The position numbers and the translations under genes were made by a program. Shown piece by piece: positions 36,616 through 48,164 of a DNA stretch of 64,000 nucleotides (positions within the stretch are counted from its first letter, which is position 1; each line of letters starts with the position of its first letter). The stretch lies in the NCBI GenBank assembly GCA_017649485.1, contig JAGCGS010000013.1:1-64000 (forward strand). The letters run 5' to 3'. The notes under the pieces were generated by a model, which worked only from the letters and a program-made list of their open reading frames with translations, was not told the DNA's origin and searched no databases. The stretch comes from Bacteroidaceae bacterium (GTDB lineage: Bacteria; Bacteroidota; Bacteroidia; Bacteroidales; Bacteroidaceae).

Positions 36616-37659
36616 TCAAAGTTTTGTAAGCTTTTTCAACTGCTCCTTCCCATGCATTAATAACTCACTGTTACGTTGTCGAATGCCTTCAAAGATATTG
36701 TCGTTCATTTGACGAATGCCATTGATTACCTCTTGTGCACGATCAAAAACAGTTAGGTTCTTACTATCGTCCGCAGGTACAATCACCTGTAAACCTGCAT
36801 GATGAATCTTCACATCCAAATTTAAACCCATTTTTACAGGGTCACCATCATAATGGACAACACCCGGAGCCTCACGACGTATATGCAAGGTCTTACAACG
36901 GAAAGTCTTAATATGACTGTTCTGATCTATCGTCTTTGTAAACAACTGTAAAGCCAATGAAGGTACATCTAAAGGTGTGAAAGGACTTAGCACCGTAACA
37001 TCCAGCAACCCATCTGTTAAAGTAGCCTTAGGGGCGATATATGCATTGTTGCCATACTGCGCTGCATTTCCACAAGCAATGAGAAAAGCCTCGTACCTCT
37101 CAGTTTCATTGCCATCTATTGTCACTTGGTATGTCTCAGGCTTATAATTTAAAGTGGCATTCAACGATTGCTCAATATATGTTGTGAGGCCTCGCTTACC
37201 TGCTTCTGAGAACTTCAAGCTCACAAAAGCATCGAAGCCCACGCCACAAGTACAGAAGAACTTACGCCTATTTATTGTGCCATAGTCAATACTTTCAATA
37301 AAGCCCTCATTGATGACTTCCAACGCCTTTTTCGGTGTCAGTCCAATCTGTAAGTGACGAGCTAAGCCATTACCTGATCCACAGGGAATAATACCCAAAG
37401 CTGTATGTGTATGTGTCAAAGCACGAGCTATCTCATTCACCGTACCATCCCCTCCAATAGCCACTACTGCGAAACGCCCTTCCTCAGCACATCTTGTGGC
37501 AATCTTCTGTGCATGACCAGCATACTCAGTATAGATTACATCATGAATATATTTTTCTTTATTCAAGCACTCGTCAATAAACCCCACAATCTGTCCTTTT
37601 TCCTGTGTACCAGATATAGGATTAACAATAAAGGTAATATGTTTCAATTCTTTTTTCAT
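36616..37659 (-). CDS. Diacylglycerol/sphingosine-kinase-type lipid kinase
   Basis: 347 aa, DAGK/YegS/BmrU family; phosphorylates a lipid hydroxyl with ATP at the inner face of the membrane. Motifs: IVNPISGT (residues 11-18), VVAIGGDGTVNEIA with GGDGT, and PCGSGNGLARHL, all nucleotide-binding loops of the fold. The C-terminal beta domain has IAPKATLTDGLLDVTVL and the conserved HYDGDP. Extra C-terminal helix (about 300-347) ends in a lysine-rich tail. It begins 11 bp after the TonB-dependent receptor and closes the six-gene signalling operon; whether it makes a lipid signal for the system is inference. Confidence 0.88.
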   Translation of the reverse strand: MKKELKHITFIVNPISGTQEKGQIVGFIDECLNKEKYIHDVIYTEYAGHAQKIATRCAEEGRFAVVAIGGDGTVNEIARALTHTHTALGIIPCGSGNGLARHLQIGLTPKKALEVINEGFIESIDYGTINRRKFFCTCGVGFDAFVSLKFSEAGKRGLTTYIEQSLNATLNYKPETYQVTIDGNETERYEAFLIACGNAAQYGNNAYIAPKATLTDGLLDVTVLSPFTPLDVPSLALQLFTKTIDQNSHIKTFRCKTLHIRREAPGVVHYDGDPVKMGLNLDVKIHHAGLQVIVPADDSKNLTVFDRAQEVINGIRQMNDNIFEGIRQRNSELLMHGKEQLKKLTKL

Positions 37660-37670
37660 AGTTAAAGCAG

Positions 37671-40016
37671 TTAAAACTTATAGGCTACAGAACCCAAGAA
37701 CCACCTGCTCTGTTGCTGCACTTCACCAGTACCCAAACCACTCTGCTTATAATTCTTATTAAACAAGTTATTGACATTGAAACTGAATTCCATGCGACCA
37801 ATTCTATAGTCTGCACCCAAATCCATAAGCAAACGTCCATCCACAAGTTCTTCAAATACTAGTGTAGTCTGATAATTTGTATAATAAACATATTGAGTGC
37901 CAATAGCAGACAAATGAGTGTGCAATGTCAAACCTCTGAGAGGTTGCCATGCAAAAACTGCACTTCCAGACATACTCGGCACATTGAGCATGTGATGCAT
38001 TTTCTTATCAAAATATTCGGCATCTAACACCTTTACTGCTTCCATAGACAGATTTGCCTTAAATCGATTCGTTTTATATTCCACACTCAACTCTGCTCCT
38101 AAACTCTTGCCAGTACCAGCATTGGCATTCATCCATCCTCGTGGATAAATCAGTCGGTCTGCCACATTATAAAAACCATTCAGCTCCACGGTCAAACCTG
38201 GCAACGGATTAACTGCTTGAACGGTAAGCTGTAATGAATGTAAGATTTCAGATTCCAAGTTTCGGGTTTCCTTCAGCATCAAGTTAGTCTTACGATAATA
38301 ATAAGGTGCGTCCACAAACGATTTGGAATAACTGAGCTTTGCATTCCATTTCGGTTGGATATAAATTAATGCTATACGTGGCGATAATTCTCTAACCACA
38401 TGGTCATCAAATCGTTTTTTGGAGTCAAATCTCAAACCGGCATTAAAGATAAAATTATTCCAGGTATGCTTGAGTTGAACGAATGCATCCAAACTATGTT
38501 CTTTGCCCTTTGCAAAGGTACTTACATCTGTCACATCGAGCAAAGTAATGTCATAATAGCCACCCAAGATGAATTTACTATCAATCATTTCAAACTTATT
38601 GTAATGCATACCAAAGCTCAACACGCCTTGATGACTCTTATTCAATTGGTAAGAGTAATCTCCTTTCAATTGCACACCATAGTTTCTATCCTGTCCATCC
38701 AAATATCTATAAATACCGGGGATATCAGTTAGCAGAGAGTCAAGATATTCAGATGTACCCAACACTTCGCTCAATGCATCTTCCGTAGGCAACTCTGTTA
38801 CTATATTATAACGCATCATATCTGAAGAATCGTAAGTAACACTAGCTTTCAAAGTCAAATCTCCCCAATTCTTAGTATAACTCAAATCTGCATGGCTCGA
38901 CTTCGTACCATAACCAGGTGACATACCTCTAAAAGTATGGTATAAGTCATAAGAATAAGGGGAGAAAGTATAAGAAAATGTGTACGGGGAGATAATTTGT
39001 GAAAAATGTGTGTCATACATAAACGAGAAGCCATTCCAGTTTAAGGTCAAGCCGAAATCGTAAGAAGGTTTGTTCCCCACTCCACCCACAATGATATCGC
39101 CACTACCACCAGTACCAGAAAACATAGAAGGTACAAAAAAGCGTTCTCCTTTTGCTTTATAAATACTACCCCATGTCAACACGTCAAGATCGAAATAGCG
39201 TTTGCCAAACAGCAGGTCGCCACGCACTTGACCATAATTTCCCAAGCTTCCTTTTACTTTAAAGCCATCCATGTCAGCACCTTGCTTGGTAATGATGTTC
39301 ACTACTGCTGACAATGCTACGCCACCATACAATGATGATGCAGGACCTCGCAAAACCTCTATCTGCTTTACTTTCTCCAGGCTCAAGCTGAAATCAGGAG
39401 CTGCTACATTGGTACTATAGCTGTTTAATCGATGACCGTTTAGCATGAACAGAATCTTTTCTTGTCCTGCACTATAGATAGAGCGCATGGCCATATTAAT
39501 GTCGTCATTGCAATCCACGCTTAACATGCCAGGCACATATGCCATCAGTACTTCCTTCAGGTTTCTACCACCACTGTTGCGAATCATCTCCTCTGTGATA
39601 AGTGTCACAGGTACAGGCGACTCATTCAGGTTCTCCGCCTTGCTTGAAGCTGTAGTAATAGTAGCTCCCATGCCACTTTTAATATCCTCCACCATATCCA
39701 CAAAACGCTGAGGATCATCGGGCACAGTGCTATAATATGGATTCTCCCTCAACAGGCTCCTAACATATTGTTCTGCCTCCTCCTGTTTGTCGAGTTCCAG
39801 GTTTGCCAAGGCGAGCAATCGGTAGGCACTCTGCTTCAAAGTACCCTTAAAAAAAGCCACACGATCACCTAAAAGCTCTTGCACCTGCTCCACACGTCCG
39901 ATGATATAAGCGTTCTCGGCATCATTGTAAACCTCTCTTTGGTCATCGTCCTGAGTCTGTGCCCAAGTGGATAGGCTCATCAACACTATGCTAATATATA
40001 TGATACACCTTTTCAT
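37671..40016 (-). CDS. TonB-dependent receptor with TPR-like N-terminal extension
   Basis: 781 aa. Signal peptide 1-19 (LSTWAQ). Residues about 25-112 form a helical TPR-like stretch (AYRLLALANLELDKQEEAEQYVRSLLRENPYY) instead of the carboxypeptidase-like repeat common in SusC. The plug runs about 128-240 (VPVTLITEEMIRNSGGRNLKEVLMAYVPG, ILFMLNGHR, IEVLRGPASSLYGGVALSAVVNIITK), then the 22-strand barrel ending WFLGSVAYKF. No SusD partner. Position inside a two-component operon (4-bp overlap with the soluble kinase) suggests it transports or senses the ligand of that system, as inference. The closest general class is vitamin B12/siderophore-like receptors. Confidence 0.9.
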   Translation of the reverse strand: MKRCIIYISIVLMSLSTWAQTQDDDQREVYNDAENAYIIGRVEQVQELLGDRVAFFKGTLKQSAYRLLALANLELDKQEEAEQYVRSLLRENPYYSTVPDDPQRFVDMVEDIKSGMGATITTASSKAENLNESPVPVTLITEEMIRNSGGRNLKEVLMAYVPGMLSVDCNDDINMAMRSIYSAGQEKILFMLNGHRLNSYSTNVAAPDFSLSLEKVKQIEVLRGPASSLYGGVALSAVVNIITKQGADMDGFKVKGSLGNYGQVRGDLLFGKRYFDLDVLTWGSIYKAKGERFFVPSMFSGTGGSGDIIVGGVGNKPSYDFGLTLNWNGFSFMYDTHFSQIISPYTFSYTFSPYSYDLYHTFRGMSPGYGTKSSHADLSYTKNWGDLTLKASVTYDSSDMMRYNIVTELPTEDALSEVLGTSEYLDSLLTDIPGIYRYLDGQDRNYGVQLKGDYSYQLNKSHQGVLSFGMHYNKFEMIDSKFILGGYYDITLLDVTDVSTFAKGKEHSLDAFVQLKHTWNNFIFNAGLRFDSKKRFDDHVVRELSPRIALIYIQPKWNAKLSYSKSFVDAPYYYRKTNLMLKETRNLESEILHSLQLTVQAVNPLPGLTVELNGFYNVADRLIYPRGWMNANAGTGKSLGAELSVEYKTNRFKANLSMEAVKVLDAEYFDKKMHHMLNVPSMSGSAVFAWQPLRGLTLHTHLSAIGTQYVYYTNYQTTLVFEELVDGRLLMDLGADYRIGRMEFSFNVNNLFNKNYKQSGLGTGEVQQQSRWFLGSVAYKF

Positions 40017-40846
40017 TTTAGCTTAGCGGGAATGATGAAAGTGAAACATGCATATTCACCCTCTTTCGTATCCATTTCAATACGACCATGATGATGCTTT
40101 TCAATGATATCGCGAGTAATGCCCATACCTAATCCTGTGCCCTTACCAACTGGTTTTGTACTGAAGAAGTTCTCATAGATTCGTCGTTTCACTTCTTCAT
40201 TCATACCCACGCCATTATCCTTTATCATAATTCTCACCTCGTGGCCATCATAAGTCACTTTGACATTCAAGGCAGGCGTATAGTCACCTCCCATTTCTTC
40301 CGACTTTTTAAAAACAGAATAGCAAGCATTGTTAGCCACATTCAGAACAGCTCGGCTAATGCCTTGAGGAATCACCATAATCAGTGGAATATCAGACTGA
40401 TACTCTTCATGAATAGAAATATTGAAATTCTTGTTATTGGCACGCATAGCATGATAAGAAAGCCACACATACTCCTTAACGATATGACAGATATCAGATG
40501 GGATGAACTCATCTTCTTTGCCCCTTGAAACCAACAGGATCCCCTGGATAATACTAATAGCTCTCTCGCCATGCTCCACAATTTTCTCCAAATTCTCATT
40601 AAGATCAGACATTATCTCTTCCAAGTCTTCACGGTCAGCCACGTCAATTTTGTCCTCATTGTCGGCCACAATCTCCTTCAGGTCTTTCAACAGTTTGTTG
40701 GACATCTTACTGAAATTGATAACGAAATTCAGAGGATTCTGAATCTCATGTGCAATGCCAGCACTCAACATGCCTAATGATGCTAACTTCTCCTGTTGCT
40801 TCAACTGTTGCCTCAGTGTTGCCAATTCTTGATTCTGCGTTTCCAT
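40013..40846 (-). CDS. Soluble histidine kinase with intact H-box
   Basis: 277 aa without membrane segment or sensor domain: a short coiled coil (1-20), a DHp domain with His33-Glu34 in AGIAHEIQNPLNF, a long helical insertion (about 50-100), and a HATPase domain with N-box (NVANNACYSVF), G1 (DNGVGM) and G2 (GKGTGLGMG). All catalytic elements are present. It lies 4 bp behind the propeller kinase and overlaps the receptor gene by 4 bp. Its DHp aligns without gaps to that of the propeller kinase, so heterodimers of the two are plausible, with this protein supplying the phospho-acceptor. Confidence 0.9.
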   Translation of the reverse strand: METQNQELATLRQQLKQQEKLASLGMLSAGIAHEIQNPLNFVINFSKMSNKLLKDLKEIVADNEDKIDVADREDLEEIMSDLNENLEKIVEHGERAISIIQGILLVSRGKEDEFIPSDICHIVKEYVWLSYHAMRANNKNFNISIHEEYQSDIPLIMVIPQGISRAVLNVANNACYSVFKKSEEMGGDYTPALNVKVTYDGHEVRIMIKDNGVGMNEEVKRRIYENFFSTKPVGKGTGLGMGITRDIIEKHHHGRIEMDTKEGEYACFTFIIPAKLK

Positions 40847-40850
40847 ATCG

Positions 40851-43658
40851 TCAACTATTTTTTAACAAGGGAATTACTATCTTAAACTCACTATATTTAT
40901 CTTTCTCAGACTCTACGAAAATCTCTCCTCCATGAGATTGTACAATTTCATGTACCAAATACAAACCCACACCAGCTGCTTCACCAGTAGTCTTTGTGGT
41001 AAAGAACGGGTCGAATATCTTTTCGAGAATGGTATGCTCAATACCCACACCATTGTCGCGCACTATCACCTGAACCTTATCTTCATCGCTTGTAGCCTTA
41101 AACAACAGTTCTGGTTGGTAGTCTTCTCTTTGTGCCTTCTTTACAATGGCGTATATGCTATTGCTCAAAATGCTCATGAACGACTTGCTCAACTGCTCTG
41201 TATTTCCATTAATCATCAATGTTTGATACGGGCAATCCAATGTTACGGTGATGTGGTACTTAGCTATCTCCTTGACAAAGAACGTGTCTGTTGCTTCCTT
41301 GTTTACGCGCAACAACTCCACCAGGTTCATGGCCTGCATGCCTCCAGAACGGTCTTTCAATATCTCCTCCATGGCTTTGAGGATACGAGTTGTATTTAAT
41401 CCATGTTGTTCTACCTTTTCCAAGTTCTGTTCCAACATACCAATCACATCCATAGAATCCTCAAAGTTTTCCTTGTCCATGTGTTCCTCCTCATCCTCTA
41501 AATTGGCTTTTAAGACTTTAATAAAGCCACTTGAAAGTTTTGAGAAGTTATTAATATAATTCATGGGGTTCAGAATACGATCAATCAAACCATGTGTCAA
41601 TTTACCCACTGTTGCCATCTTTTCCTGTTGGATGAGTTTGCTTTGTGCCTGTCTCAATTCAGCTGTTCGCTCTTGCACTATATTCTCCAGTTGTATCTTT
41701 TCCTGTTCCAGTCTGTGCGTACGCCATCTTGACACCAACATCACAAGCGAGAGAAATAATAACGCATCAATAAACAACATGTACCATGACATATAGAAAG
41801 GATAGCTGATACGGAAACGCAGAGGCTCGGCCTCCCACACCTGTCCTTTAGCATCCATTCCTTGCACCTCTAACTGATATTTGCCGTAGTAAAGATTCAC
41901 AAACTCAGTGGAATGACTCTCCGACCAAGATGTCCAACTGTTATTATTCAATTTATATCTATACAAAGTATTGCCAATCAACGACTCATGATGTAATGCG
42001 TAGGTCATTTTCAGGTGTCTCTCATTGCTCTTGAGTTTATTCAATTTCTCAGGTACCTCACCATAGCCTGCCCAAATCAAACTGTCATTACCCATCCTAA
42101 CAGAACAAATATCTAAACCATTGTCTGCAGTAAGCAAGGGGTCAGGCCTCACCATATCAATAGCCACCAAGCCAAAGGAACCTCCCACCCACAACAAATT
42201 ATTGTGTACAACAATGGATCTCACAGAATAATCCTTTAACGGAGATAGCAACTGATCATACTCCTCGAGGCGTTTGCCATCCTTGTATACATACAAATTC
42301 TTGCTCTCATTGTCGGTAAGCCACAACAAACCATTGTCATCCACATATGAAAAACCCGGATATGGGAAAGGCTCATCATCGTTGGCATTCACCAAAATCA
42401 TCTCATCCTGATAATAAATAAAAGTAGCCAAGTCTTCACTTCCAATAAAGTTTACCTCATTTTTCACCTCTCTGATGTCTCTCACCTGACCAACCTGTCC
42501 ATATATATTTCGCAACCACAAAGACCCCTGATTGTCAATCTGCATTGAGGTCACATTTTCTAAATTCACTACTTTCTTGTGTTCTCCTTGTGCACTGTTA
42601 TAATAAACAGCGTCAATTTCACCACTATAAAAGCCATTATCCATAGGTAATATAGATGTTGTACTAGCGGTAGTCAGTTGCTCCACCTTGCCATTTCTAA
42701 GGCGATACACCCCAGAAGAGGTAGCAGCTAACAAAGCGTCTTTACGTCTATCCAGCATCCAACAAGCGTGGTTAATGCCTGGTATTGGTACAAAGCGTGT
42801 GCCCTCTTGGCGAAATAGACCAGACAAAGTGCCGACATACAGCTGATTTTCAAAAATATATGTAGAAAGCACTTCACCTCGCAAACCCTCTGAAGCCATA
42901 TATCTGGTATAAGCTGAAGGCACCATCATGGCAAACACACCATTGTCGGTCGCTCCCCACAAGATGCCATTACCATTATAGGCTAATCGACTTATATTAT
43001 TATTTATTAATCCATTCTCTTCAGTCATCCTGAAAATTTCATGCTCTTCAGCATCCACAAACTTAACACCTCGTTCCTCATCGACTATTGCAATGAAACC
43101 GTCCATCAGTTGTAGTCGCTGTGTATTGCCTTCTTGATAGGACTGATAGCCCCTACGAATATTTGTATGACTCCCATTGACATCATAATCTACTTTCGTC
43201 CAATTATCTCCCTCAACACGGAATGTCTGATTATCCACAGTATTGAACATCACTACCCCATTCTCTTCCCAGATTTTGTTCACCTCACCTCTGAAAACTG
43301 ATATTCCTTCCAAAAGATGTATCTGCAAGTCTTGTATCTCATTGAGTTCCAAGTAACCTATACAATTATAGCCACCTATCCAAATTGTCCCTTTGCTATC
43401 TTGGTATAGGGAAGTGACTCGTGTAAGACCTGGGGTATGAACAATATCCCATTCTGCTTGGTCATAATACAGCAACCCTTCAAAGTTTGCCACATACACC
43501 ACTCCTTCTTCTCTGTCCACCAGAATATCGAAGTTGCGGTTGTGGGCATCATATTCATCTGGCAGGTAATTACGAATAAAAGGTAAGCCTTGGGCACCTA
43601 CTTGGGAGAAGCTAAGTACCAAAACGCAAAAAGTTAATATATATCTCGTTAATTTCAT
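40851..43658 (-). CDS. Propeller-type sensor kinase lacking the phospho-acceptor His
   Basis: 935 aa. Signal peptide 1-22; periplasmic two-component regulator propeller repeats (about 30-560) ending in a Y_Y_Y domain (about 565-620); membrane helix about 623-644; coiled coil 645-680; DHp and HATPase domain to the end. The H-box reads GLIDRILNP: aligned with GIAHEIQNP of the neighbouring kinase, His-Glu is Asp693-Arg694. The HATPase boxes look intact (LSNSIYAI, DNGVGI, GEAAGVGL). So it should bind ATP but not carry the phosphate itself at the usual place; His689 is four residues off. Probably a sensing pseudokinase. The periplasmic propeller suggests carbohydrate-like or protein ligand sensing. 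Confidence 0.88.
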   Translation of the reverse strand: MKLTRYILTFCVLVLSFSQVGAQGLPFIRNYLPDEYDAHNRNFDILVDREEGVVYVANFEGLLYYDQAEWDIVHTPGLTRVTSLYQDSKGTIWIGGYNCIGYLELNEIQDLQIHLLEGISVFRGEVNKIWEENGVVMFNTVDNQTFRVEGDNWTKVDYDVNGSHTNIRRGYQSYQEGNTQRLQLMDGFIAIVDEERGVKFVDAEEHEIFRMTEENGLINNNISRLAYNGNGILWGATDNGVFAMMVPSAYTRYMASEGLRGEVLSTYIFENQLYVGTLSGLFRQEGTRFVPIPGINHACWMLDRRKDALLAATSSGVYRLRNGKVEQLTTASTTSILPMDNGFYSGEIDAVYYNSAQGEHKKVVNLENVTSMQIDNQGSLWLRNIYGQVGQVRDIREVKNEVNFIGSEDLATFIYYQDEMILVNANDDEPFPYPGFSYVDDNGLLWLTDNESKNLYVYKDGKRLEEYDQLLSPLKDYSVRSIVVHNNLLWVGGSFGLVAIDMVRPDPLLTADNGLDICSVRMGNDSLIWAGYGEVPEKLNKLKSNERHLKMTYALHHESLIGNTLYRYKLNNNSWTSWSESHSTEFVNLYYGKYQLEVQGMDAKGQVWEAEPLRFRISYPFYMSWYMLFIDALLFLSLVMLVSRWRTHRLEQEKIQLENIVQERTAELRQAQSKLIQQEKMATVGKLTHGLIDRILNPMNYINNFSKLSSGFIKVLKANLEDEEEHMDKENFEDSMDVIGMLEQNLEKVEQHGLNTTRILKAMEEILKDRSGGMQAMNLVELLRVNKEATDTFFVKEIAKYHITVTLDCPYQTLMINGNTEQLSKSFMSILSNSIYAIVKKAQREDYQPELLFKATSDEDKVQVIVRDNGVGIEHTILEKIFDPFFTTKTTGEAAGVGLYLVHEIVQSHGGEIFVESEKDKYSEFKIVIPLLKNS

Positions 43659-43663
43659 GTTAG

Positions 43664-45262
43664 TTACCTGTCAGTAAAGCTTTCGTAAGGGATGTTGTCA
43701 CCAATGTAATAAGACCATTCATCACTTGTAAAGTTACGAGTCAGTTGACTTTTAGCCACCTCTGCCATTTTAGGTGCGGAGATGAGCGTACGAGTCAGGT
43801 TTCCCATCTGATCACCCGTCCAGAGGTAATCACCTGAATGGTCAAACGATGAAAACAACACCCAGTTGTTAGATGAAAACACATTTATGGGTTCAGGTTT
43901 CTCGTTTTCAAGGTTCCAGAATTTCACTGTCCCATCATAACTTGAAGACACTAAAGTCTCTTTAATTCCTACCTTCGATGACATTTTTGACAAGGATGCC
44001 ACCCTCGACACACGTGAGCGATGTCCCACCAGACGAGTCATCTTACCTTGTTTATCAATTACTATTACCACGCCATCTGTGGTGCCAAAGACATCAACTC
44101 CCAGTTCTTCATTTTTATAGAAAGAATACACTCTTTCTTGGAAAGGCAGCTTTTCCTTCCTCAATTTCCAACTATTAGCGTCAACCACAATCATCTGATC
44201 AGAGTCACCAAACAGACAAAATTCATTTTTCCTTATTCCTGAGATGGAAACAGGCATGTCAAAAGGGATAACTCTGCCAATTTTCAAATTGCCTTGCTCA
44301 ATAATAAACAGACCATTTTCTGCCACTACCGCCAACTGAATATCGTTCAATGAATAGATACGAAAAGGATGTATAGCCCCTTCAATGTGCTGTATCACAA
44401 AAGTGTTATTAGGCCTTAACATGATGACGTCGCCTGTTCTGCTAACAGCATATTTCATGCCATTATTAAACACAACCATATCACGCAAGTCATAGGTTTT
44501 ATTTTGGAAAAGAACCTTAGACGTGAGTTTTCCACTCTCAAACCTATGCTCTAACATTTCTCCGTAAGTACTTATAGTTAAAAGATTATCGTTATCGTCT
44601 CCAACCCATTCCATACTACGTGTAGGGCCTATGTGTACCTTCCATGACTGATCGCTATTTGTCACTAAGGAGAGGGCTTCGAAGATAGCTCTTTGATACA
44701 CATCATCCCCATATCTATTGGCAAAGTTGTAGGCAGAATAGGCCAATAACAAAGCCAGCTCATGGTTGCCTGCATTCTCTTGAATCGAAGCCATATTGCC
44801 CAATGAACGAGCCAAGGCACGATAGCTCAATGTATCCGCCACACTACGTGCAAACTCGGCTTCCTCACGTTGTTGTTCGGCCACCAATCGTTGACTCTCT
44901 GCCAAATGAGAAGCATCAACGGCTCGTTTCTCCGACTCCAGGGCATTGCGTTCAGCCTCAATAGCATTTTGTCTCTCAATCTCAGAACGGCGACGCATTT
45001 CATTGGCAATGCTCGTCTGTTGCAAAGCCTCCTCACGTTGCTGGTCAGAAATTTCCTTCTGCTGATAGGCTATTTCCTCCATCTGCGTACTGATGCTGCG
45101 TTCAATAGCACTACGTTTCTCCTTCTCAGTCAAGTCTTTTAACTGAGCTTGCAACTCTTTGTTCTCACGAGAGTTAGCTGAATAGCCAGCCCAAAAAGCA
45201 ATAATACCAGCTATCAAGACAGCCAGTAACGACAATAGCCATATTTTATTTTCCTTACTCAA
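43664..45262 (-). CDS. Membrane-anchored coiled-coil WD40-like beta-propeller protein
   Basis: 532 aa. One N-terminal membrane helix (about 8-26) after a short positively charged start, so the rest should face the periplasm. Residues 30-140 are a charged coiled coil with Gln/Glu/Arg repeats; about 140-190 is a helical section (RALARSLGNMASIQENAGNHELALLLAYSAYNFANRYG) resembling the region before WD40 repeats in STAND-type proteins. The beta-propeller follows, best seen at LVGHRSRVSRVASL and VSSSYDGTVKFWNLENEKP. No catalytic motif. It sits between the phosphatase regulator and the propeller kinase (gaps of 8 and 5 bp). A scaffold or sensor part is inferred. Confidence 0.75.
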   Translation of the reverse strand: MSKENKIWLLSLLAVLIAGIIAFWAGYSANSRENKELQAQLKDLTEKEKRSAIERSISTQMEEIAYQQKEISDQQREEALQQTSIANEMRRRSEIERQNAIEAERNALESEKRAVDASHLAESQRLVAEQQREEAEFARSVADTLSYRALARSLGNMASIQENAGNHELALLLAYSAYNFANRYGDDVYQRAIFEALSLVTNSDQSWKVHIGPTRSMEWVGDDNDNLLTISTYGEMLEHRFESGKLTSKVLFQNKTYDLRDMVVFNNGMKYAVSRTGDVIMLRPNNTFVIQHIEGAIHPFRIYSLNDIQLAVVAENGLFIIEQGNLKIGRVIPFDMPVSISGIRKNEFCLFGDSDQMIVVDANSWKLRKEKLPFQERVYSFYKNEELGVDVFGTTDGVVIVIDKQGKMTRLVGHRSRVSRVASLSKMSSKVGIKETLVSSSYDGTVKFWNLENEKPEPINVFSSNNWVLFSSFDHSGDYLWTGDQMGNLTRTLISAPKMAEVAKSQLTRNFTSDEWSYYIGDNIPYESFTDR

Positions 45263-45270
45263 TTAAATCG

Positions 45271-46449
45271 TCAATTCTCAATCGTCAGTGGTTTCACTGT
45301 CATAACTGTAATATCATCACTTTGAGGAGCATCACCTGTAAATTCCTTCACCTTACCCAACACCATGTCGATGGTCTCCAAACAAGTAGCCCCCAGACAA
45401 GAAGTCAAGGTCTGCTCCAAGCGCTTATCAGTAAACTCCTCATTCAAAGCGTTGCATGCTTCATCCACTCCATCGGTGTAAAGAACCAACATGTCTCCCT
45501 CATTCAGCTTGACGTATTCATCAGAAAACTCGAAGAAATCAAATACTCCCAACATACCACTGTCACTGTTAGGCAATCTTTCCAATTTTCCGTCTTTACG
45601 CAAGATATAAGGAGGATTATGCCCTGCATTACAATAGTTTACTTCACCAGTTTTGACATTATAGATGGCATAGAACACCGTTACAAACATATTGTCGGCA
45701 CTCTCCCTGCAAAGCATGGCATTGCTCACCCTCATACATTCAGCGGCAGAATAGTCGCGTTGCAAACCACTGATATGTATCATGGTACGACTCACTGCCA
45801 TGAAGATAGCAGCAGGTATGCCTTTACCACTCACGTCAGCTATTACCAAACCCATCCGCTCATCGTCAATCTGGAAGAAGTCATAGAAATCTCCACCAAT
45901 ATCCTTGGCAGGAATCATCACCTTTGCCAGGTCAAATTTCCCTTTACAATGCTTGAACTCTGGTAGTTTTTTCGGCAAGATAGCTTGTTGAATCTCTGCT
46001 GCAACAGCTAAGTCAGTCTTGATCATCTCCAACTGTTGATGCTCTTTTTGGGAGTTCTTAACGAAGTTGATCTGGTCAATGGCCTTTTCAATAGTCAAGC
46101 TTAAGTCATCAAGGTCAATGGGTTTTGTTGCAAAGTCAAAGGCACCATTATTCATTGCTGTGCGTATGTTGCCCATATCACCATAGGCTGATACCATGAT
46201 ACACTTCAAAGCAGGATTTCTCAACTCGTTTATTTTGGTGAGCAAGGTCAGTCCATCCATCTCTGGCATGTTGATGTCACTCAGAATAATATCAATATCA
46301 GGTTGTTCCAACAACATCCTAAGTGCCTCAATACCATTGTGTGCGAAGAAGAACTCATATTCGCCCTTACGTATCTTTCTTCTGAAATATTGTGTTAATA
46401 AAACTTCGAGATCATTCTCATCATCAACACTTAAAATTTTAATTGCCAT
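45271..46449 (-). CDS. Response regulator with SpoIIE/PP2C phosphatase output
   Basis: 392 aa from ATG 46449; the frame is open to 46485 but that ATG lies in the -7 box. Receiver domain 1-120 with D9, D10, phospho-acceptor D58 (LSDINMPEMDG), S87 and K109. A linker helix (about 125-165, AAEIQQAILP) leads into a PP2C/SpoIIE domain with all metal-binding segments: KDIGGDFYDF, ADVSGKGIPAA, NAGHNPP, YTDGVDEA and QSDDITV. In known systems such phosphatases dephosphorylate anti-anti-sigma (STAS) proteins, but no STAS protein or anti-sigma factor is in the window. First gene of the six-gene operon. Confidence 0.9.
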   Translation of the reverse strand: MAIKILSVDDENDLEVLLTQYFRRKIRKGEYEFFFAHNGIEALRMLLEQPDIDIILSDINMPEMDGLTLLTKINELRNPALKCIMVSAYGDMGNIRTAMNNGAFDFATKPIDLDDLSLTIEKAIDQINFVKNSQKEHQQLEMIKTDLAVAAEIQQAILPKKLPEFKHCKGKFDLAKVMIPAKDIGGDFYDFFQIDDERMGLVIADVSGKGIPAAIFMAVSRTMIHISGLQRDYSAAECMRVSNAMLCRESADNMFVTVFYAIYNVKTGEVNYCNAGHNPPYILRKDGKLERLPNSDSGMLGVFDFFEFSDEYVKLNEGDMLVLYTDGVDEACNALNEEFTDKRLEQTLTSCLGATCLETIDMVLGKVKEFTGDAPQSDDITVMTVKPLTIEN

Positions 46450-46481: not shown

Positions 46482-46511
46482 GCAAATATAAGCATTTTTT
46501 GTTATCTTTGC
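46482..46511. promoter_or_regulatory. Back-to-back promoters of the signalling operon and the acyl-AMP ligase
   Basis: Minus strand TATATTTGC (46490-46482), 32 bp before the response-regulator ATG; plus strand TATCTTTGC (46503-46511), 24 bp before ATG 46536. Neither has a perfect -33; both boxes lie 12 bp apart, so the promoters overlap. Confidence 0.55.
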
Positions 46512-46535: not shown

Positions 46536-48164
46536 ATGACAGATTTTAAAACTATCTTTGAAAGCCGTTATACATGGATAGAGGGCTTTATGCGTAACGT
46601 TAGACGTTATGGCAATAAAATGGCGATGATAAATCCAGATGATAATCGGAAATGGACTTATGCCGAATTGAATCAAGAATGCAATAGACTTTGTAACTCA
46701 TTGGCATTCGATGGTCTGAAAAAAGGTGACGTTATCATGTTACAATTGGTGAATTGTCCGGAATTTGCCTTTGGTTACTTGGCTGCTCATAAGAGTCACG
46801 CCGTTTGTTGCCCAGTGAATTTTAGGTTAAAGCCTGGTGAATTGGCATTTAACATTGACGACTCTAAACCATTGACAATAATTTTTAATGAGACCAACAA
46901 AGCAGATGTGCTTGAAGCTCTTACCATGACTAAGCATCAGCCAAAGCGACTGATTGTAGTAGGTGGAAAGACCGATGGTAAGGTGATTTCTTACGAAGAT
47001 TATACTCGTCCTTCTTCTATCCAAGAGCCATATTTTACCTGTGATTATAATATTTACGATGAGACCACTCGACTCTATACATCAGGAACTACAGGCTTCC
47101 CTAAAGCGGTACCTCTAACCAGTATTAATGAGGTGTTATCAGCTCACGACGTAATGATTCATTTCCCAATGAATTACAAGGATGTTACAATGAACACCAC
47201 ACCTTGGTTTCATCGTGGTGGTTTGCATTGTGCAGGTCCTTGTCCAGCCTTTTATGCAGGTGCCACCATCGTGGTGATGAGCAAATTCAACGCAGAACTC
47301 ACCCTGAGGTATGTAGGAGAATACAAGATTACGTTTATCGTAGGTGTACCCACCGTCTTAGAGGAACTAGCTGACAATCAAGAGCGTTTGGCACACGATA
47401 TTAGTACATTGAAAGGTATCGTTACCATGGGTAGTCCGTTGGAACGCTCAGCTTGCATCCGTTACCAGCATGTGCTCACGCCAAACATTTACAACGGTTA
47501 TGGTACTACAGAGACATTCTGGAATACCTTCCTCCGTCCGTTCGACTTGCCAGCCAATGCTGGTACAGCTGGTGCTTCATGCATTGATGACGACGTGCGT
47601 GTAGTGAAGATTTACGACGACCATCGTGCTACTCCCGGCGATCTTGCAGCCAAGGATGGCATTGAAGTAGGTGAAGTGATTATCAGTTCACCTGCCAAAT
47701 CACCTTATGTCTATGCAAATAATGTGGGTGAAACTGATCGCAAATACGCCGATGGCTTTATCTACACCAATGACCTGGCCACATGGGACAAGAACCAGTT
47801 CATCACCATCGTAGGTCGCAAGGACGACATGATCATTTCTTCTGGCGAAAACATTTACCCAACTGAAGTAGAGGCAGTTTTGAATATGCACCCGAAAGTA
47901 AAGGATTGTATCGTAACTTCGGTGCCAGACAAAATGCGAGGTCAAATTGTCACTGCATATATCGTGCGAGACGATTTGTCGCTCACACCTGAAGAATTGG
48001 ATGATTATTGCAAGAATAGTCCGAACATCGCTAACTTCAAGCGTCCCCGTTTCTATCGCTTTGTAGCACAGATTCCTTTCAATGCCACTGGCAAGAAGCT
48101 GCATGTCAGAATTAAGGAAACAGCTTTAGATGACCTTAAAAATGGCTTGCTCTATCGAGTTTAG
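46536..48164 (+). CDS. Acyl/aryl-CoA synthetase-like AMP-binding enzyme
   Basis: 542 aa, ANL superfamily: activates a carboxylic acid with ATP to an acyl-AMP and transfers it, usually to CoA. Motifs: P-loop-like RLYTSGTTGFPKAV (about 172-185), NGYGTTE (A5), GRKDDMIISSGENIYPTEVE (A8), and the catalytic C-terminal Lys in FNATGKKLHVRI near 527. Full length and intact. Substrate cannot be read off; fatty or aromatic acids are possible. Divergent from the signalling operon, monocistronic with a strong terminator. Confidence 0.88.
   Translation: MTDFKTIFESRYTWIEGFMRNVRRYGNKMAMINPDDNRKWTYAELNQECNRLCNSLAFDGLKKGDVIMLQLVNCPEFAFGYLAAHKSHAVCCPVNFRLKPGELAFNIDDSKPLTIIFNETNKADVLEALTMTKHQPKRLIVVGGKTDGKVISYEDYTRPSSIQEPYFTCDYNIYDETTRLYTSGTTGFPKAVPLTSINEVLSAHDVMIHFPMNYKDVTMNTTPWFHRGGLHCAGPCPAFYAGATIVVMSKFNAELTLRYVGEYKITFIVGVPTVLEELADNQERLAHDISTLKGIVTMGSPLERSACIRYQHVLTPNIYNGYGTTETFWNTFLRPFDLPANAGTAGASCIDDDVRVVKIYDDHRATPGDLAAKDGIEVGEVIISSPAKSPYVYANNVGETDRKYADGFIYTNDLATWDKNQFITIVGRKDDMIISSGENIYPTEVEAVLNMHPKVKDCIVTSVPDKMRGQIVTAYIVRDDLSLTPEELDDYCKNSPNIANFKRPRFYRFVAQIPFNATGKKLHVRIKETALDDLKNGLLYRV

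Follow-up and report, generated by a model that had tools for sequence, protein, structure and literature searches.

Candidate input half of a partner switch in Bacteroidales: a conserved five-gene module with an acceptor-less sensor kinase, an intact partner kinase and a receiver-PP2C phosphatase

What kind of signalling system is encoded by a run of six tightly spaced genes in a Bacteroidaceae bacterium, and how many of the six belong to it? The run occupies positions 36,616 to 46,449 of the window, by which we mean the whole analysed stretch, the first 64,000 nucleotides of contig JAGCGS010000013.1 (GCA_017649485.1, an assembly of 2.6 Mb that is 82.6% complete). All six open reading frames (ORFs) lie on the minus strand and encode, in order, a receiver-phosphatase (RRSP, 46449-45271), a WD40-like protein (WD, 45262-43664), a propeller-bearing sensor kinase (HK1, 43658-40851), a second histidine kinase (HK2, 40846-40013), a TonB-dependent receptor (TBDR, 40016-37671) and a lipid kinase (LK, 37659-36616), with successive intergenic distances of 8, 5, 4, −4 and 11 bp. 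Six same-strand genes with such spacing and a 4-bp overlap had been described from the letters alone (the original prediction), and both the coordinates and the gaps were reproduced. The domain calls made then agree with Pfam and NCBIfam apart from that of HK1 as an ordinary kinase. We found that the first five genes are a conserved module, while the sixth is a neighbour and not part of it. As judged from sequence, the module probably forms the input half of a partner switch driven by a two-component system, in which HK1 would sense for HK2 and the signal would run from HK2 through RRSP to a STAS protein and then to RsbW.

The conservation of the module was followed in samples of 201 genomes of the family, 295 of the order and 296 of the phylum. 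RRSP was found in 13 of the 201 family genomes, and the DRILNPxNY DNA signature of the kinase pair's unusual member, HK1, occurred in the identical 13 (Fisher p 1e-20, kinship not corrected). WD was present in those 13 and in G140, where it gave two weak matches and no module locus. In the order sample the signature was met in 7 of 295 genomes, all 7 with RRSP, and in the phylum sample in two of 296, the own genome and G681, which holds three copies. With WD as the query, twelve family loci were found besides that of the window, and in nine of them RRSP-WD-HK1-HK2-TBDR are consecutive, as they also are in L067, a locus of another family. Of the remaining three, L023 has six genes inserted between RRSP and WD, L025 has the module without TBDR, and in L034 the module falls into two parts, TBDR-WD-HK1 and a divergently oriented RRSP-HK2, which points to separate sensing and core sub-units.

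A wider view was obtained by a contig scan with the Asp-Arg region of HK1, from which the best 80 of 448 relatives were retained. The five genes stand in order, intervening genes allowed, at 70 of these 80 loci. Among the ten loci without the full order, five end at a contig edge (L127, L159, L172, L173 and L202), L164 holds RRSP as fragments only, as judged by eye, on a contig that ends within TBDR, and the 8 kb contig of L151 carries neither WD nor TBDR; the other three are taken up below. If each gene is taken to begin at its first possible start codon, overlaps are seen in 58 of 79 WD/HK1 pairs and in 52 of 71 HK2/TBDR pairs. A scan of contig records queried with the WD protein gave no matches. 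The record titles of the 80 loci name Prevotella, Prevotellaceae, Bacteroidaceae and Bacteroidales, many from the rumen or another herbivore gut, and cultured members include Prevotella communis E15-14 (L126, full module), Prevotella sp. ne3005 and tf2-5, and Prevotellaceae HUN156. An order conserved in so many genomes exceeds chance as an operon arrangement. It is not limited to close strains, a limitation that the original prediction had named as speaking against itself. The kept order, the phosphatase output and the receptor support a conserved operon that signals from envelope to cytoplasm.

The most unusual member of the module is HK1, which is made up of a signal-like segment (aa 7-25), a Reg_prop propeller, Y_Y_Y, a hydrophobic segment (aa 624-642) and a kinase-like core. 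When HK1 is aligned to HK2, GLIDRILNPMNYINNFS of the former stands against GIAHEIQNPLNFVINFS of the latter, and Asp693-Arg694 (codons at 41577..41582, minus strand) replace the His-Glu found at this position in normal HisKA kinases. Pfam found HATPase_c in HK1 and did not detect HisKA at E <= 0.01. HK2, a protein of 277 aa with HisKA and HATPase_c, has the pair intact as His33-Glu34 (codons at 40745..40750, minus strand, placed from the residue number and the ORF coordinates), and neither a sensor domain nor a hydrophobic segment was found in it. Asp-Arg in HK1 and His-Glu in HK2 recur in 12/12 family loci, all found via WD. The two working kinases of unequal type that had been predicted are not supported, as HK1 has no acceptor His in the window or in any of these loci; judged by its missing H-box His, it is not a canonical HisKA sensor kinase.

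Most ATP-site residues are kept in HK1. Across 28 Asp-Arg kinases, a set chosen by the Asp-Arg box itself (so that its Asp-Arg is circular) and containing 8 of the 80 scan loci, N833, D868, G870, G872, G896 and G898 are invariant and N869 is kept in 27, whereas the first glycine of the G2-box is Ala in the window HK1 and in most relatives. His33-Glu34 is kept in 25/25 partner kinases. In the 80-locus set, Asp-Arg was read in 80 boxes, with two further HK1 fragments without a readable box, and His-Glu in 73 HK2, one being unreadable. Since the scan query itself held Asp-Arg, the former count is not independent evidence; independent evidence comes from the counts of the WD-found, RRSP-found and signature searches and from the map of the family loci. 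A tree was built from 81 kinase cores with the Asp-Arg columns left in the alignment. A single branch (SH-aLRT 99) separates the Asp-Arg rows from all others, and 23 of the 25 His-Glu partners group together (100); those of families f32 and f72 are placed elsewhere. The simplest reading of these sequences is a single ancient loss of the acceptor, retained since.

By its sequence, HK1 is a pseudo-histidine kinase of the DivL-like kind, with the acceptor lost across orthologues and other boxes kept. DivL of Caulobacter is described in PMC4211667 as having lost the acceptor His in its orthologues (Tyr, and Ala in one) with other boxes kept, and as acting on the CckA phosphorelay. The likeness is one of kind and is set apart from orthology: DivL is alphaproteobacterial, has PAS sensors and binds DivK, whereas HK1 has Asp-Arg, a periplasmic propeller and a partner kinase that is usually the next gene. 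How, then, would HK1 signal? It may pair with HK2 or otherwise control it. A sharper form of this idea, which we regard as tentative, has HK1 catalytically active in an HK1-HK2 heterodimer, where its ATP domain would phosphorylate His33 of HK2 as a split histidine kinase. The invariant N-box, G1-box and two G2-box residues, which outlived the acceptor in all 28 Asp-Arg kinases, would be explained by such a role, and the helix-1 sequences of HK1 and HK2 are similar, their genes being adjacent in 11/12 family loci (L034 is the exception). The Ala in place of the first G2-box glycine speaks against catalysis, and so does the precedent of DivL, which, according to PMC4211667, retains its boxes and is without kinase activity.

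Two families of systems that share parts with HK1 and the receptor were considered and set aside. The hybrid two-component systems (HTCS) of Bacteroides carry the acceptor His, a receiver and an AraC-type domain in a single chain. HK1 has in common with them the periplasmic Reg_prop propeller and Y_Y_Y ahead of the kinase core, but it lacks the acceptor His, and Pfam found neither a receiver nor an AraC-type domain in its chain, so an HTCS assignment was rejected. In FecA-FecR-FecI, an outer-membrane TonB-dependent receptor feeds a cytoplasmic response, and the module likewise has such a receptor as an input to the cytoplasm. Unlike in that system, TBDR has no STN domain, and Pfam detects neither FecR nor a sigma domain in any of the six operon proteins; this assignment was dismissed on the same ground.

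The output of the module would be RRSP, a protein of 392 aa in which Pfam places Response_reg and SpoIIE over their cut-offs, the latter a PP2C-type phosphatase. Its longest ORF opens with the TTG codon at 46485; a start at the ATG of 46449 fits the sequence and the relatives. Asp58, which we take to be the phosphate acceptor, is located within ILSDINMPEMDG, and the motifs DIGGDFYDF, VIADVSGKG, YTDG and SDDIT, presumably the metal sites, are present. The best NCBIfam match is RssB of Pseudomonas at 116.8 bits, under its cut-off of 700. HK2 would serve RRSP, to judge from their neighbourhood. As an observation on the receiver, L097-L102 encode response regulators whose receivers are 56-60% identical to that of RRSP and whose output, of ~200 aa, is a different one; His-Glu kinases of this type lie next to them, and one reading is an output swap on one receiver.

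Among the closest known systems are two with receiver-PP2C phosphatases that act on STAS proteins. In RsbK-RsbY of Bacillus cereus, a His kinase acts via a receiver-PP2C that dephosphorylates an RsbV-type STAS protein, and the receiver phosphate is proposed to raise the activity of RsbY, according to PMC4574943. In RsfS-RsfR of Mycobacterium smegmatis, the receiver-PP2C acts on a STAS antagonist (RsfB/RsbW1/SigF) and phosphorylation lowers the activity of RsfR, as given in PMC10950880. The sign of the receiver effect on RRSP is therefore not to be assumed. The arrangement of kinase, receiver-PP2C and STAS would be shared with RsbK-RsbY, which has one membrane kinase with its acceptor His, a methyltransferase and a sigmaB target, whereas the module has both a pseudokinase and a further kinase, together with a WD40 protein and a receptor of the outer membrane. 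A two-component system with a receiver-PP2C regulator is shared with RsfS-RsfR, in which RsfS is a single kinase with its own sensor, unlike the HK1/HK2 pair.

Does a STAS protein exist for RRSP to act on? The original prediction had found no STAS partner, which is correct for the operon in the window. Genome searches and synteny overturned the broader reading, as the own genome has two stand-alone STAS/RsbW pairs, on contigs C40 and C56 and unlinked to the module, and relatives have STAS/RsbW within their operons. Both STAS proteins of the own genome carry the serine of the S-x-G-L loop, which we take to be the residue phosphorylated in RsbV. On C40 the pair is part of one run (L112 6453-12409) that reads alpha-amylase, Cache-HAMP-SpoIIE protein, STAS, isoamylase/GlgX-like enzyme, RsbW, and on C56 the order is RsbW, CitMHS/TrkA_C permease, STAS. 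With a receiver-PP2C, a His kinase, and a loop-serine STAS protein and RsbW in the genome, the system is, as far as its sequences tell, a candidate two-component-driven partner switch.

The linkage itself comes from relatives. Three of the twelve family loci hold STAS/RsbW (L023, L027 and L030). Among 31 order loci fetched for RRSP alone, of which f83 and f75 give three each and some stretches are short, RsbW is found in 13, STAS in 17 (four of them weak, at 26-30% identity) and either in 18. L068 and L069 read STAS-RsbW-HK1-HK2-RRSP on a single strand, and L067 reads STAS-GlgX-STAS-RsbW-DJ1-RRSP-WD-HK1-HK2-TBDR, also on a single strand; L138, L142, L153 and L157 have RsbW or STAS within the gene run. 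Single-strand runs that unite both systems are those of L067, L068, L069 and L138. A strong RsbW-type domain, stand-alone or fused, counted by hand at E under 1e-16, is present in 13/13 module genomes versus 71/201 overall (hypergeometric p 6e-7, kinship not corrected).

An alternative is that RRSP acts on a substrate other than STAS, the STAS/RsbW neighbours being coincidental or serving other phosphatases. The own genome does encode two further SpoIIE proteins, one of them adjoining the C40 pair, and the operon of the window has no STAS gene. We consider this rather unlikely in view of the 18 of 31 RRSP-only loci with STAS or RsbW and of the four single-strand runs. As to which pair would belong to RRSP, the RsbW of C56 shares 60-63% identity with the RsbW encoded in the operon of L153. 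In the RsbW tree the C40 protein clusters with its counterparts in L023 and L067 (support 100), and the placement of C56 is weakly supported. By sequence the C56 pair appears the likelier cognate of RRSP, with the C40 pair as a second candidate.

The full proposal then reads as follows. The outer-membrane TBDR and a periplasmic WD would report a ligand or the state of the envelope to the periplasmic propeller of HK1. HK1, a pseudo-histidine kinase spanning the inner membrane, would pair with, or otherwise control, the sensor-less HK2, which would autophosphorylate on His33 and pass the phosphate to Asp58 of RRSP. Phosphate on the receiver would alter the PP2C activity, with either sign, and the PP2C domain would dephosphorylate a STAS (RsbV-like) protein, whose dephosphorylated form would bind an RsbW-like anti-factor and free the target. 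In this scheme every contact between the proteins is inferred, as are the signal's direction, its ligand and the output; for the order of the envelope events the basis is gene neighbourhood.

Several observations weigh against the proposal. No STAS/RsbW lies near the module within the window, and 9/12 family loci have none in the fetched stretch. The presence of RsbW is by itself weak evidence because 71/201 family genomes have it. Beside the C40 and C56 pairs, no sigma factor or other target was noticed from the ORF beginnings, no genome-wide search having been made. L170, L182 and L195 have WD-HK1-TBDR without RRSP and HK2 within the 20 kb fetched. In the distant relative G681, one cluster speaks for the proposal, with a WD40 gene truncated at the edge of the stretch, TBDR, two further genes, a propeller Asp-Arg kinase, a His-Glu kinase and RRSP; a second copy has the Asp-Arg kinase (L213 9146-11335) beside three His-Glu kinases with no RRSP in 20 kb, and a third (L212 8589-10613) has no adjoining kinase and no RRSP in the 20 kb fetched. 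Because of these copies, the rule that the Asp-Arg kinase goes with RRSP has exceptions. L068 and L069 are without WD, propeller and TBDR, so the core needs none of these.

The envelope part of the module is built from WD and TBDR. WD has an N-terminal hydrophobic segment (aa 7-25), a coiled-coil-like stretch and a WD40-like beta-propeller, for which the Pfam matches are under their cut-offs and the profile match to WD40 chains is strong. Of the membrane-anchored coiled-coil/WD40 protein predicted at first, the hydrophobic segment and the WD40 profile stand, while the coiled coil was judged by eye and the periplasmic placement is one that we infer. TBDR has a plug over the Pfam cut-off (aa 130-238) and a barrel with a profile match to solved siderophore/colicin receptors, the best being colicin I and enterobactin receptors. 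Plug and barrel agree with the predicted TonB-dependent receptor; its N-terminal extension of ~95 aa is TPR-like by eye, with no Pfam TPR match.

The receptor is often accompanied by genes resembling non-ribosomal peptide synthetases (NRPS). They lie in the gene run at 25 of the 80 scan loci, 9 between HK2 and TBDR and 16 after the core, and adjoin TBDR in 5/12 family loci; a 26th locus has one further off, and 54/80 have none in the fetched stretch. Their layouts differ, as at L126 11601-16931, L163 11596-16968, L034 3148-6831 and L033 16764-19205, among others, and three examples read A-T-C-A-T-TE, C-A-T and A-T. Is the module mainly for the uptake or sensing of a small NRPS peptide, a siderophore or a self-signal? 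The synthetase genes with these layouts and the receptor profile would fit such a role. We hold it to be unlikely, as no synthetase is present in the fetched stretch of those 54 loci and no condensation domain was found in the own genome (82.6% complete) or in 4 of the 12 further module genomes that were searched. Changing neighbours such as NRPS and LK would be controlled or sensed by the module, and not components of it. A still broader proposal, which we offer with considerable reserve, is that Bacteroidia have a class of two-chain histidine kinases, with sensor and ATP domain on one chain and the acceptor on the other, that drive a receiver-PP2C switch reporting on an outer-membrane receptor and, in some rumen Prevotella, on the peptide of a synthetase in the same operon.

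What of the sixth gene? LK is a lipid kinase of the YegS/BmrU type with DAGK_cat/YegS_C and a TIGR00147 match of 127.7 versus a cut-off of 118.65 bits. In the window it follows TBDR at 11 bp, and it is perhaps co-transcribed with the module there. It was found in 19/20 genomes, with the module present or not, including 7/7 same-genus genomes without the module, and directly after TBDR in 6/80 scan loci. When window ORFs of >=150 aa from 26-62 kb were compared at E <= 1e-25, no immediate neighbours were common to the window and to LK with 20 kb around it in five (of seven searched) same-genus module-less genomes; in L209, the LK stretch has relatives of two genes that lie >20 kb away in the window. 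Since LK is general and rarely beside the module, a lipid-signalling branch was rejected. The original prediction, a relay of all six genes in which both kinases are active and the lipid kinase forms a branch, would draw on the 11 bp gap and on the same neighbour in those 6/80 loci; with LK present regardless of the module, no shared immediate neighbour in the five genomes and no acceptor His in HK1, such a relay is highly improbable.

The history of the locus leaves some traces. RRSP and the Asp-Arg signature are absent from 12/12 other sampled genomes of the same genus, which may reflect either loss or acquisition. The G+C of the operon (0.39-0.43) is similar to that of its flanks and gives no sign of foreign DNA. 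Spread by plasmids was rejected; HK1 matches 1 of 72,556 plasmid records, the 39.5 kb NZ_OY725770.1 of Parabacteroides distasonis. That record is labelled a plasmid and carries topA and argS; it may be a chromosome piece. Its locus (L215 5946-15034) has in one run a TPR protein, an annotated TonB-dependent receptor, two Asp-Arg kinases, one His-Glu kinase and RRSP; the annotated receptor was not counted as TBDR because it has no Pfam match. A scan of the window operon gave 37 promoter-like sites versus 28 +/- 5.9 expected and 4 terminator-like sites versus 6.1, numbers that speak neither for nor against internal promoters.

Three neighbouring features are recorded here. An AMP-binding (acyl-CoA ligase-like) gene, judged by sequence only, lies at 46536-48164 on the opposite strand and starts 86 bp from RRSP. 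The GlgX-like protein of C40 is 84% identical to a GlgX-like protein inside the module locus of G168, hinting that partner switching is linked to storage glucan. The CitMHS/TrkA_C permease recurs beside STAS/RsbW and the module (L113 9423-11207; L027 17501-19282; and after TBDR in L149 and L152, where only gene length and the first part of the sequence were considered), and it might be the target of the switch.

Each step of the proposed pathway has a separate precedent, in RsbK/RsbY and RsfSR for the switch and in DivL for the pseudokinase. In the titles and abstract openings searched in the open-licence literature, no description was found of an assembly that joins these steps to a receptor of the outer membrane and a WD40 protein of the periplasm, nor of an RsbU/RsbV/RsbW-type pathway in Bacteroidia. 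The module would supply Bacteroidia with a concrete input for a pathway of the RsbU/RsbV/RsbW type. Because the pseudokinase and its candidate partner are adjacent in 11/12 family loci, it is also a natural test of signalling by a kinase without an acceptor residue, and cultured carriers are at hand in Prevotella communis E15-14, with the full module, and in the P. distasonis record, with a related core of two Asp-Arg kinases, one His-Glu kinase and RRSP.

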